37,533 nucleotides of DNA. Origin: a virus. Position numbers and translations under genes: made by a program. The stretch spans positions 1-37,533 of the IMG/VR virus record IMGVR_UViG_3300038701_001679; one strand, given 5' to 3'. Numbering within the stretch: the first letter of the stretch is position 1; every line of letters starts with the position of its first letter. This document shows, piece by piece, positions 12,669 to 17,724 of this stretch. Under the pieces are notes generated by a model. That model was not told the DNA's origin. It saw only the letters and a list, made by a program, of their open reading frames with translations, and made no database searches.

Positions 12669-13292
12669 ATGACAACATCTAACACAGGAGAACGTAACAC
12701 AGGGAACTGTAACACAGGACACTTTAACACAGGGGACTTTAACACAGGGAACCGTAACACAGGGGACTGTAACACAGGGTACTGGAACACAGGGGACTGT
12801 AACACAGGGGACTTTAACACAGGGAACCGTAACACAGGGGACTGGAACACAGGGTACTGGAACACAGGGGACTGTAACACAGGGTACTGTAATACTATTA
12901 CACCAAACATATTGGTATTCAATAAGGAACTCTCACGAGAAGAGTGGGATAATGCGGATAAGCCAGATTGGATGTATTTTAGTATGACTACATGGGTTTA
13001 TGAGCAGAATATGAGTGATAAGGAAAAAGAGGCATATCCATCATATACAACTACAGGTGGGTATTTGAAAGTATTTAGCAGTTATCATCATGCAGCAATT
13101 AATTCATGGGAAAAAGCAACAAAAGAAGATAAAGAACTTACTCTAAAGCTACCAAATTTTGATGTAGAAGTGTTTAAAGAGATATTTGGATTTGCGCCAG
13201 AAATCAAACAAACAAAAACTATAACAATAGATGAGAAAGACATTGAGATATCTCAAGAGAGTTTCGAACAGCTTAAAAAATCACTTACATAA
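12669..13292 (+). CDS. NTG-pentapeptide repeat protein
   Basis: A 207-aa protein. Residues 5-74 are 14 perfect five-residue units, Asn-Thr-Gly plus two variable residues (NC, HF, DF, NR, DC, YW, DW and YC). Such repeats fold as a beta-helix, related to pentapeptide-repeat proteins, and the variable positions point outward. Residues about 80-207 form a separate globular domain (LSREEWDNADKPDWMYF, DKEKEAYPSYTTTGGYLKVF and WEKATKEDKELTLKLPNFD, then VFKEIFGF) of a kind I associate with phage pentapeptide-repeat proteins of unknown role. Its function might be DNA mimicry or binding of a host protein; neither is shown here. The gene is bracketed by 21-base direct repeats, suggesting acquisition as a unit. 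Confidence 0.88.
   Translation: MTTSNTGERNTGNCNTGHFNTGDFNTGNRNTGDCNTGYWNTGDCNTGDFNTGNRNTGDWNTGYWNTGDCNTGYCNTITPNILVFNKELSREEWDNADKPDWMYFSMTTWVYEQNMSDKEKEAYPSYTTTGGYLKVFSSYHHAAINSWEKATKEDKELTLKLPNFDVEVFKEIFGFAPEIKQTKTITIDEKDIEISQESFEQLKKSLT
12681..12890 (+). repeat. 15-bp coding minisatellite, 14 units
   Basis: Fourteen tandem 15-base units of the form AACACAGGN-NAC-NGN encode the NTG repeats. A five-unit block (DF, NR, DC or DW, YW, DC) occurs twice in succession, giving a 75-base higher-order repeat, which indicates growth by block duplication. Copy number could change by slippage or unequal recombination without breaking the frame. Confidence 0.95.
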
Positions 13293-14341: not shown

Positions 14342-14779
14342 ATGAAAATAGGGCCAGAAGACATGGAGCAAATGAACCTTGTTCGGTTTCTCGATAGAAA
14401 TAATTTACTTTTCACGCACATACCAAATAGTACCTGGACTCCATCTTGGAGCCAGAAGCATAAAAACAAACACATGGGTGTTCGTAGGGGGTTTCCAGAT
14501 ATGGTTATATGTATACCAAAAAACAAATCAAAGGACGGAGAACCGTGGTTGTTGTTTATAGAACTCAAAAAGAAAAGAAAAATGCTCAAGAGTGGTAAGC
14601 CGTCAAAGTCTCGTCCGGGTACAACGCCAGAACAAGACGAATGGCTTGAGTTTCTAGGAGGTGTTCCTGGTAATACTGCCGCCACTGTTTCGTGTGGTGC
14701 ATACGAGGCGAAGCAGTTTATAGTAGACTACATGAGGAATCCAGCGGGGTTTGTGGATGCGAATACATGGCTTGATTAA
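14342..14779 (+). CDS. VRR-NUC-type PD-(D/E)XK nuclease
   Basis: A 145-aa protein with a complete VRR-NUC core: GVRRGFPDMVICIP (Pro52-Asp53) and, after a loop, LLFIELKKKRK (Glu74-Leu-Lys76). The C-terminal helix TPEQDEWLEFLGGV followed by a strand and SCGAYEAKQFI also matches (family pattern: Q..w...L...G......v..........). Phage members act as structure-selective or general endonucleases. Here it precedes the annealing protein and the nuclease-motor gene, so a role in resolving recombination intermediates is likely. A terminator follows its stop. Confidence 0.88.
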   Translation: MKIGPEDMEQMNLVRFLDRNNLLFTHIPNSTWTPSWSQKHKNKHMGVRRGFPDMVICIPKNKSKDGEPWLLFIELKKKRKMLKSGKPSKSRPGTTPEQDEWLEFLGGVPGNTAATVSCGAYEAKQFIVDYMRNPAGFVDANTWLD

Positions 14780-14857: not shown

Positions 14858-15610
14858 AACGATACAAAAAAAGTTGTGCCAGTGAAAGACTCTGGCGAAA
14901 CATTCCAAGAGCCAATCACGAAAGAGATTGCTCTTTTTGAGCCTACCGGCTATAGCGGGTACACAAACAAGGAGATTGCTATATTAAAGTCTACCGTTTT
15001 TAAAGATTGCCCGGATATGAATACGCTTGCTATGGCATGTCACCTGGCAAAAACATACCAGCTCGACCCATTCGCAAAAGAGTTTTGGGCGGTAAATCTA
15101 GGAAAGAAAGATAATCCAAATATGATTTATGAGGCGTCTGGTGCTGGTTGGCGTAAGTTAATACGTCGACAAGATAATTTCAAAAAAATGGTTGTAAATG
15201 CGTTCTATCCATCGGATACGATCGAATTTGATATGATCAACCAGAAGGTGGTGAAGCATACAACATCTATCGAGGCAGCAACAGAGAAGCCGCTCGGTGC
15301 TTATGTTTACTGTGAGTATATAAACGGAGACACAAACCTTGCTATTGCATGGTGGAGCGAGTATGGAAAAGAAGGAAAGGGGAAAAACAAATGGGACAAA
15401 GAATATGAAACCCCTTGGAAATATGCACAGGAGATGATAAAGCAAAAAGCCTCTGCTGTATTTGGTCGTACATACTGTGGTATGTCTGGACTTTATGCAC
15501 AAGGTGAAGTAGTTACGCAAGAAGATGAGATAGAGATAAAAAAGAAGGAGATGCGCGAGGTTGAAAATGAGGCTGTGCTAGAAGAACAACCCGCTATTCC
15601 TCTTCCATAA
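14855..15610 (+). CDS. recT: RecT/Bet-family single-strand annealing protein
   Basis: A 251-aa recombinase that would anneal complementary single strands made by a partner exonuclease. Family features are NTLAMACHLAKTYQLDPFAK followed by EFWAVNLG (usual pattern F...c...gLnPf..qIy.v), YEASGAGWRKLIRRQDNFKK, and TPWKYAQEMIKQKASAVFGR near the C-terminus (usual W.....dMi.KtA..ra). The tail (about 215-251) is acidic. ATG 14855 is fixed by promoter/leader copy C; an in-frame extension upstream runs through the terminator and is rejected. The stop overlaps the next start (TAATG), coupling it to the nuclease-motor gene, as RecE and RecT or lambda Exo and Bet are paired. Confidence 0.9.
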   Translation: MNDTKKVVPVKDSGETFQEPITKEIALFEPTGYSGYTNKEIAILKSTVFKDCPDMNTLAMACHLAKTYQLDPFAKEFWAVNLGKKDNPNMIYEASGAGWRKLIRRQDNFKKMVVNAFYPSDTIEFDMINQKVVKHTTSIEAATEKPLGAYVYCEYINGDTNLAIAWWSEYGKEGKGKNKWDKEYETPWKYAQEMIKQKASAVFGRTYCGMSGLYAQGEVVTQEDEIEIKKKEMREVENEAVLEEQPAIPLP

Positions 15611-17724
15611 TGAGTAAAACAATACCGCATACGTATAGAGATATGGCCCCAGATAAATACGAGGCCATATTGAGCAACTTCCTGATTTCTTATTGGAGCT
15701 ATAGTGCCATCAGTGCATACCAAGGGAATCAAAAGAGGTTCGAGAAAGAACATATATATAGGGAGCGTGGGGCGTCGCCAGCGACTACTATTGCTGGTAG
15801 CGCATACCATTACGCACTAGAACAATACTTTAAATCAAAACAAAAAGTTTTAGAAGGGAAGTATGAAAAAGAGCTTGATGTTTTGGAGTGTTCAGATATT
15901 GCATTTAACTTCATAGATGAATACCCAGCGCACAAATGGAAGACACAAAAGACACTTCCAACCATAGAAGAGTGTAAAATTGCAGCAACAAAATCCGTTA
16001 CGGCGCTTATAGAGAATTTCTTTAAAGAAATAGACATATACGGCGATATAAAGCGCGTTTTGTTTGTAGAAGAACTGATGACACAGTTTGTAACAATAAA
16101 CGGCGTAGACATACCTTTGCCGTGCGTAGGCTCCCCAGATCTTGTTGTTGAGACAATGGATGGTAAAATAGTTATTATGGATCACAAGAGCCTGAAGGAA
16201 TTCACGGCAGATGAAGACGTGCAATATAAATATGGCGTTCAGTCTATAAATTACTTCAAACTTGTTTCAGGTGAAATAGGAAAGAATGTTGATGAGGTCT
16301 GGTTTATTGAGAATAAATACTCTAAAAATAGAGATCTCTCAAGCCAGTTAAAATGCCACAAGGTGATTATGGATGAAGACACTGTGAAGGTTTACGAGGC
16401 TATGTTGTACGAGCCATTGCGGCAAGTCCTTATGGCTACATCAGACCCCGACTTTGTCTATGTGATGAATCCTATGGATATATTCATGACAATTTCAGAG
16501 ATGGAGGAGTTTTGGGCAAAGACAATGATTGCGGAAGTTGAGGACTTCAATATACCGGATGACAAAAAGCCCATTATAGAGAAGCGACTCAAGAAGATTA
16601 GAGACGCAACAACAGCAAATATAAGTCCAAGAGTGATAAAAAATTACCGGGCAAATGCTTCAAAATTTATTAAATATGATTACACCAATAAAGACATGAC
16701 AAATGCAGAAAAAATCGAACACATATACAAGACACTGGGTATACCAGTGCGTGTAGCCCACGAATTTGATGGGTTTTCATCGGACAGTTACTTGTTAGAC
16801 GTTGCTGCCGGAGTAGAAATAAAGAAAGTATACAAACATTCAATGGATGTTGCAAAAGCGCTAGGGGTTTCGTCTGTGCGTATGCCAAGCGATCTTGTAG
16901 TTGTGGATGGTTCTTCGTATGTAGCCGTTGAGGCAAACAAGGATGGGCGAAGAACTCTTGAATATAACGCAGATGATCTTGTGGATTCAAGAATCCCACT
17001 AGGTAAAGATAACTACAACAATGTAATTTACTGGGACGTAGACAATCCATCTACGCCGCACTTGTTAAAATGTGGCTCTACTGGGAGTGGAAAGTCTATG
17101 TCTATTAAGTCTACGATTAAATATGGTTTACAGGGGTTGTTTGAAAGTTTTGTTATTTTGGATTCTAAGTTCTCGGATGAATTCTTGGATCACAAGAGCG
17201 ATTCTAGGTTTGAGATACACAATGAAATATATGATATTGAGAATAAATTAAAAGATCTTGTAGAAGAGATGAACAACCGTGTAAAGAACGGTATCGTCAA
17301 AAAAACACTTATTATATTCGACGAGTTTTCGGATGCAATAGAGAACGGGCGAAAAGGTAGGGCGCTTGATGTTCGAGCAGATGTTCTTGATGGAGTTTCT
17401 AAGTCTGGGGCGCCCAAAATAAAGAACGTTGTTGTTGGCCGTGAAAAATCAATCGAAGAAAACCTAAAGCTACTACTACAAAAAGGACGATCTTGTGGGT
17501 TCCGGATATTGGCCGCAACACAGCGTGCATCTGTAAAAGTTATTACCGGAGACGCAAAGGCAAACTTCCCAGTACTTGTATGCTTCAAGGTGCCAAAATC
17601 GGTAGATAGTAAGGTTGTACTTGATGAAGAAGGGGCAGAAAAGTTGCTTGGTAAAGGAGATGGCCTTATGATTTCACCAGACTTCCCATCAACCACGCGG
17701 TTCCAAGGGTACTATGTTCAGTAA
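15610..17724 (+). CDS. RecB-like PD-(D/E)XK nuclease fused to an FtsK-type DNA motor
   Basis: A 704-aa protein with two clear parts. Residues 1-320 are a RecB/Cas4-like nuclease: a Gly63..His67 segment (ATTIAGSAYHYALEQYF), Asp177 in GSPDLVVE, Asp191-His-Lys193 in VIMDHKSL, and Gln211..Tyr215 in GVQSINYFKLV. Residues about 375-704 are an FtsK/SpoIIIE motor: the beta domain (LDVAAGVEIKKVYKHSMDVA, then KALGVSSVRMPSD), PHLLKCGSTGSGKSMSIKS with Walker A at 489-496, TLIIFDEFSD with Walker B Asp571-Glu572, LAATQRASVKVITGDAKANF, and DEEGAEKLLGKGDGLMI. No FtsK gamma (KOPS-reading) domain is present. Coupled to RecT, it occupies the RecE position. I infer an ATP-driven end-processing nuclease, like NurA-HerA in logic but in one chain. 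Confidence 0.9.
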   Translation: MSKTIPHTYRDMAPDKYEAILSNFLISYWSYSAISAYQGNQKRFEKEHIYRERGASPATTIAGSAYHYALEQYFKSKQKVLEGKYEKELDVLECSDIAFNFIDEYPAHKWKTQKTLPTIEECKIAATKSVTALIENFFKEIDIYGDIKRVLFVEELMTQFVTINGVDIPLPCVGSPDLVVETMDGKIVIMDHKSLKEFTADEDVQYKYGVQSINYFKLVSGEIGKNVDEVWFIENKYSKNRDLSSQLKCHKVIMDEDTVKVYEAMLYEPLRQVLMATSDPDFVYVMNPMDIFMTISEMEEFWAKTMIAEVEDFNIPDDKKPIIEKRLKKIRDATTANISPRVIKNYRANASKFIKYDYTNKDMTNAEKIEHIYKTLGIPVRVAHEFDGFSSDSYLLDVAAGVEIKKVYKHSMDVAKALGVSSVRMPSDLVVVDGSSYVAVEANKDGRRTLEYNADDLVDSRIPLGKDNYNNVIYWDVDNPSTPHLLKCGSTGSGKSMSIKSTIKYGLQGLFESFVILDSKFSDEFLDHKSDSRFEIHNEIYDIENKLKDLVEEMNNRVKNGIVKKTLIIFDEFSDAIENGRKGRALDVRADVLDGVSKSGAPKIKNVVVGREKSIEENLKLLLQKGRSCGFRILAATQRASVKVITGDAKANFPVLVCFKVPKSVDSKVVLDEEGAEKLLGKGDGLMISPDFPSTTRFQGYYVQ

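Follow-up and report, generated by a model that had tools for sequence, protein, structure and literature searches.

A RecB-type nuclease fused to an FtsK motor and coupled to phage annealases with a common C-terminal tail: a candidate motor-driven exonuclease–annealase module

The exonuclease–annealase pairs of phages, known as SynExo modules (lambda Exo–Red beta, RecE–RecT, YqaJ–RecT and DUF3799–RecT), are textbook systems. Phage recombination enzymes also underlie recombineering, whose transfer between hosts is limited partly by the matching of annealase, exonuclease and host single-stranded DNA-binding protein (SSB). Loading of the annealase by lambda Exo and the Red-beta C-terminal domain is presumed (PMC8303780), RecT followed by YqaJ has been reported in Firmicutes phages (PMC8093625), and in HerA–NurA a hexameric motor carries out end resection (PMC9960219). 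We focus here on a gene in a virus record of IMG/VR (IMGVR_UViG_3300038701_001679; 37,533 bases, analysed whole and called the window below) that encodes a RecB-type nuclease and an FtsK DNA motor in one chain and that directly follows a RecT annealase gene. We propose, with a probability of roughly 0.7, that this gene pair is a phage SynExo in which the stand-alone exonuclease has been replaced by the nuclease–motor chain. The evidence is computational and concerns the fusion and the conservation of both its active sites, its two folds, its tight coupling to annealase genes, the exchange of these partners and the tail that they have in common.

First of all, the chain had been read in an initial annotation, made from the letters alone, as a RecB-like nuclease joined to an FtsK motor, and Pfam, phmmer against the PDB and Foldseek agree with that reading. 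Pfam places PDDEXK_1 at residues 29–222 (2e-7), with no match to YqaJ, and FtsK_alpha at 361–441 (7e-5), followed by FtsK_SpoIIIE at 461–501 marginally below the cut-off (8e-5), and phmmer finds the FtsK motors of E. coli and Pseudomonas (3e-25). The nuclease fills the N-terminal half, where it replaces the membrane domain of FtsK, and the motor forms the end of the chain, with no match in Pfam to the FtsK gamma domain (PF09397). Matches to DUF87 (HerA) are weak and confined to some members of the family, FtsK_alpha standing in place of a HAS-barrel HerA. The active-site residues of the nuclease domain are H67, D177, D191-x-K193 (D191-H-K193 in the window), Q211 and Y215, and an invariant E234-x-K236...N240...Q246 motif lies at its end; the motor carries Walker A at 489–496 (G489–S496) and Walker B at 571–572 (D571–E572). 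All positions that had been named at the outset (D177, D191-H-K193, Q211...Y215 and both Walker motifs) are correct.

The two folds are also seen in the predicted structure. An AlphaFold2 monomer model built from 72 aligned sequences has a mean predicted local distance difference test (pLDDT) score of 91.9, its sole weak segment (352–358) lying between the halves, and a predicted template modelling (pTM) score of 0.55, at which the placement of the halves relative to each other is not fixed by the model. Foldseek aligns the motor half with the E. coli FtsK motor bound to double-stranded DNA (dsDNA; 6t8o, TM-score 0.70 by target length, E 2e-24) and the nuclease half with the Cas4-like ACE1 (0.58), AdnA and Dna2, while in BFVD no viral model exceeds 0.40 in TM-score by query length, a match to one half. 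A conserved cysteine quartet was not found in 73 fusions, just two N-terminal cysteine columns being filled in more than 40/73, and the nuclease thus probably has no Fe-S cluster of the kind present in AddB, Cas4 and Dna2.

IMG/VR was searched in three rounds (loci L002, L003, L007–L010 and L091–L170), and a search of species genomes added one locus, L011, in a Saccharibacteria metagenome-assembled genome (MAG). Together with the window, these loci hold 78 fusion open reading frames (ORFs) of full profile length, 73 of them distinct, with a median pairwise identity of 54% and a minimum of 23%. In the alignment of the distinct sequences, D177, D191, K193, Q211, E234, K236, N240 and Q246 of the nuclease are present in 73/73, as are G489, G492–K495 (Walker A), E572, R627 and R639 of the motor; D571 and H67 are each kept in 72/73 and Y215 in 65/73. 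Loss of the nuclease or Walker residues in homologues, one of two weaknesses that the initial annotation had raised against itself, was looked for and, beyond these few changes at D571, H67 and Y215, was not found. The other was that two genes had been merged by a frameshift or an assembly error, for which nothing speaks beyond the unusual architecture; both halves lie in one frame in all 73 distinct full-length sequences, which come from independent assemblies, and this explanation is already refuted, its remaining probability being negligible. Two relatives depart from this pattern. At L159:5923-7929 the frame is interrupted by in-frame stops, possibly a reassigned stop codon in that phage, and at L138:2104-4213 the relative occupies two overlapping frames, split near profile position 563, by a frameshift or an error.

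Neither a full-length fusion nor anything that matches the nuclease half occurs among the 50,697 phage records of INPHARED. PLSDB yields matches to the motor half only, and of 287 genomes from the phylum to which the Saccharibacteria MAG belongs, that MAG alone has the fusion. The best partial INPHARED match, MT837090, was set aside as an ordinary FtsK-like ORF on a contig with chromosomal-type genes. Given the lack of a deposited phage with the fusion, we take the carriers of the fusion to be uncultured or prophage-derived viruses; a tyrosine integrase on 9 of the 12 fusion contigs tested suggests that these are temperate phages. In the Saccharibacteria MAG a distant fusion (L011:9980-12932) has RecT downstream rather than upstream, the reverse of what is seen at the other loci, and next comes a gene for 156 amino acids whose product, judged by eye, looks like a VRR-NUC protein.

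Second, the fusion is tied to annealases, and to annealases of many kinds. The gene immediately upstream belongs to one of eight clusters, all counted here as annealases, at 65 of the 73 loci and overlaps the fusion in 44 of these 65, by four bases in 34 and by one base in 10. The window is of the latter type, the RecT stop and the fusion ATG sharing one base in TAATG (...cttccaTAATGagt). Partner families assigned by Pfam or PHROG are RecT, RecT2 (PHROG 561, RecT-like), ERF, Rad52/22 (PHROG 1097) and a Sak4-like family (AAA_24; PHROG 1366; weak match to the Sak4 family), and a further cluster, c3 (PHROG 3657, of unknown function), holds the annealase position beside the fusion at L008:4481-5275 and is found at 17 further loci. 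At L133 the fusion locus begins at the contig edge. The pairing of fusion and annealase claimed at the outset thus stands, and its restriction to RecT does not, at least five and probably eight annealase families being involved. These families have been exchanged repeatedly at the fusion: a maximum-likelihood tree built from the 73 sequences by a quick search, which has some long branches, requires 26 changes of partner class where the minimum is 7. A recent swap is seen between L103 and L109, whose fusions are identical at 687/697 positions and whose flanking DNA is 92–98% identical, while the annealase genes are unrelated and each product has its own KK..M(K/R)..MP tail. Upstream of the annealase of L109, an ORF (L109:2606-3429) contains repeats at 24-base spacing, in a copy number unlike that of the closely related L103.

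In phages without the fusion, relatives of two of these clusters are often followed by a YqaJ exonuclease (at six c3 loci and one Sak4-like locus of those sampled), from which we infer that the fusion stands where a SynExo module has its exonuclease. Pseudomonas phage phi297 was considered as a case of nuclease, RecT and FtsK in separate genes and was rejected, its 'FtsK' consisting of a gamma domain without a motor; this protein (L335:3437-4408, NC_016762), annotated as DNA translocase FtsK near RecT, is possibly a misannotated DNA-binding accessory protein of recombination. The position of the fusion also bears on whether it is a weapon or counter-defence enzyme that degrades host or competitor DNA, as has been proposed for HerA/FtsK–nuclease defence proteins. 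The PADLOC profiles mad8, SspH and HerA do match it, and DndH-type proteins combine a nuclease with a HerA/FtsK motor (PMC10853773); the strong PADLOC matches, on the other hand, are confined to the motor half, with no defence protein in PADLOC spanning both halves, and the constant annealase partner and YqaJ-equivalent position indicate recombination, so that we regard a weapon as very unlikely. Action against host DNA and a stand-in role for missing replication genes, both of which the initial annotation had entertained, found no support in the analysis.

Motor-only proteins of 318 and 331 amino acids, 45–47% identical to the motor half, are encoded at L155:6016-6972 and L156:5998-6993, directly upstream of a 320-amino-acid protein whose sequence suggests a tyrosine recombinase; the two genes look like a phage FtsK–Xer pair, and among stand-alone proteins the motor-only ones may be closest to the fusion motor. 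This arrangement, reminiscent of FtsK–XerCD, lends something to the idea that the motor of the fusion works in the segregation of genomes, the resolution of dimers or the transfer of DNA, the nuclease attached to it being incidental or regulatory. Such a role sits poorly with nuclease residues that are invariant in 73/73, with an annealase rather than a tyrosine recombinase as the constant neighbour and with the failure to detect the orienting gamma domain in the fusion, and we consider it improbable, if marginally less so than a weapon. Coupling to annealases leaves a motor-driven end-processing recombination system, as first suggested, the most likely function.

Third, the annealases share a feature that the initial annotation did not contain. 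Across unrelated partners, the protein often ends in KKxx(L/M)(K/R), a short variable stretch and then (L/M)-P-COOH. The end (L/M/I)P occurs in 43 of 61 partners of the main fusion clade and in 4 of 1017 background ORFs of the same loci, the looser (L/M)(P/L/M) in 54/61 against 17/1017, and 57/61 have Leu or Met at position -2; the element KKxx(LMIV)(KR) is found in 37/61 where shuffles of the same residues lead one to expect 2.2. The tail is restricted to annealases beside this clade. Within the Sak4-like family, an (L/M/I)-P end is carried by 13/14 proteins beside the fusion and 0/53 elsewhere, and in c3 the looser ending is found in 3/3 beside the fusion and 1/64 elsewhere; when the c3 and RecT profiles are compared, only the tail aligns, at low probability (5%). 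A nucleotide-level cause, namely the start-codon context of the overlapping fusion gene, was considered and rejected: just 1 of 163 background ORFs with an ATGA overlap has an (L/M/I)-P end, position -2 is written with ATG (Met) and six Leu codons and position -1 with four Pro codons (CCA dominant), and the tail is retained at L007 and L134, where the fusion lies 523 or 1589 bases away with other genes between. The varied codons and the persistence across gene separation indicate that the tail is kept at the protein level.

We lean, by a narrow degree, towards the view that at least five, and probably eight, unrelated annealase families independently gained the same short docking tail, which would act as a plug-in adaptor and render them interchangeable on an end-resecting enzyme driven by ATP. 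The chief rival to this view holds that the tail has another binding target, e.g. host SSB, and is a host-factor or self-assembly signal rather than a dock for the fusion, in which case the module would still be a motor-driven SynExo. That the tail tracks the fusion and not the annealase family argues against this, as do Flavobacterium phages FL-1 and FCL-2, whose Sak4-like and RecT2 annealases belong to the same families and lack the tail, with no fusion-type gene among the neighbour genes read; this host control is partial, the hosts of the fusion phages not being established. We thus hold the rival to be unlikely, though well ahead of the other alternatives. Among the fusion-free Sak4-like proteins of L211–L251, many have acidic, Phe-containing tips (DDPFA, EEF, DVF) similar to the C-terminal tip of SSB.

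Several points weigh against the picture of an annealase docked on a resecting motor. The tail could bind another protein of the same phages or hosts. It is found in 1 of 10 partners of the distant fusion clade, and tail docking is thus not universal; the KKxx element is absent (0) from the Sak4-like, Rad52 and ERF partners, and the tail counts were made over related sequences, so that Fisher p values are inflated by kinship. Furthermore, three of the eight clusters counted as annealases (c3, c17 and c48) have no assigned function, and at L107 the upstream DNA read contains no annealase of the eight clusters. The predicted c3 model (pLDDT 85.7) finds its best PDB match, albeit a weak one (E 0.03), in lambda Red-beta; together with its position by the fusion or YqaJ, this makes c3 probably an unrecognised annealase family.

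In the mechanism that we propose for the SynExo reading, six motor halves would assemble into a ring, which would load onto a DNA end and move along the duplex at the expense of ATP. The nuclease domains tethered to it would cut a single strand, presumably the 5' one, so that 3' single-stranded DNA remains. The C-terminal tail would hold the annealase at the enzyme, and the annealase would be loaded onto the emerging single strand and then anneal to a homologous strand. The hexamer, the ATP-driven resection, its polarity and the binding of the tail to the fusion itself are what we infer. The helical region between the halves is, speculatively, a candidate docking site: residues 326–350 are frequently absent in the distant clade, and the stretch 251–350 is among those richest in residues specific to the main clade (F301, W302, R326).

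Table 1. Features of the recombination locus in the window
Feature	Position	Strand	Basis and remarks
VRR-NUC-like protein upstream of RecT	14342..14779	+	Pfam VRR_NUC 6e-4 (below cut-off); PHROG
RecT/Bet-like annealase, 268 amino acids	14804..15610	+	Pfam RecT 9e-19; PHROG 2780 and 252
RecT C-terminal tail (IKKKEMREVENEAVLEEQPAIPLP-COOH), common to unrelated fusion-adjacent annealases	15536..15607	+	comparison of C-termini
Nuclease–motor fusion gene	15610..17724	+	704 amino acids, ATG start, open frame throughout
RecB-type PD-(D/E)XK nuclease domain, residues 29–236	15694..16317	+	Pfam PDDEXK_1; invariance in 73 sequences; Foldseek
Helical region joining nuclease and motor, residues about 237–351	16318..16662	+	AlphaFold2 model, alignment
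Low-confidence linker, residues 352–358	16663..16683	+	AlphaFold2 pLDDT
FtsK alpha and RecA-like motor, residues 361–704	16690..17721	+	Pfam, phmmer, conservation, Foldseek

The VRR-NUC-like protein matches PHROG 824, a family of unknown function (3e-16), as well as PHROG 5702, a Holliday junction resolvase (1e-4); it may be a junction resolvase and may also belong to the module. A pentapeptide-repeat protein (12669-13292; Pfam 2e-18) is encoded upstream of the recombination genes, and elsewhere the window contains tail, terminase, portal and capsid genes. Shine-Dalgarno motifs precede just 1 of 34 window genes, a scarcity that would be in line with a host from the Bacteroidota, although the identity of the host is not established.

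If the proposal is correct, a processive ATP-driven nuclease into which annealases plug by their tails would resect ends by a new mechanism and offer a simple rule for assembling matched pairs. The tail would also be a marker of annealases readable from genomes, pointing to c3 (phrog_3657) and two other unassigned clusters as likely annealases, and the L103/L109 pair indicates that a phage can swap its annealase cleanly while retaining the nuclease.

How, then, does the fusion compare with the systems already described? It resembles SynExo modules in that a PD-(D/E)XK nuclease gene stands beside an annealase gene of interchangeable family; its nuclease, on the other hand, is RecB/Cas4-like and joined to an ATP-driven dsDNA motor instead of belonging to the lambda Exo, RecE or YqaJ family, and its unrelated annealases have a short C-terminal tail in common rather than a folded, family-specific domain. 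With RecBCD, AddAB and AdnAB it shares the nuclease superfamily and the possession of its own DNA motor, whereas the motors of those enzymes are superfamily 1 helicases that unwind DNA and the fusion uses a dsDNA translocase instead. Cellular FtsK and SpoIIIE have the same alpha and motor domains and Walker motifs, but the fusion lacks their N-terminal membrane and gamma domains and has a nuclease at its N-terminus. HerA–NurA likewise combines a hexameric dsDNA motor of the FtsK/HerA class (a hexamer that in the fusion would be expected rather than seen) with a nuclease and produces 3' ends (PMC9960219); it differs in its separate chains, its HAS-barrel HerA as opposed to FtsK alpha-beta domains and a RecB-type nuclease in one chain, and its RecA/RadA partner in place of a phage annealase. 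DndH and other HerA/FtsK capture proteins do join a nuclease and such a motor in a single chain, but these are large proteins of defence systems, whose nucleases come from other families and whose partners differ too; no coupling to an annealase is described for them (PMC10853773). The view of the initial annotation, that no phage RecT system of this form is described and that translocase and nuclease are separate proteins in known systems, thus holds in part: the open-licence literature gave no description of an FtsK–nuclease partner of phage annealases or of the common tail, while single chains of nuclease and HerA/FtsK motor exist in DndH (PMC10853773). Finally, we regard SynExo pairs and the nuclease–HerA/FtsK chains of defence systems as the known part of this comparison, and the architecture of the enzyme, together with a candidate adaptor peptide on its annealases, as what is new.
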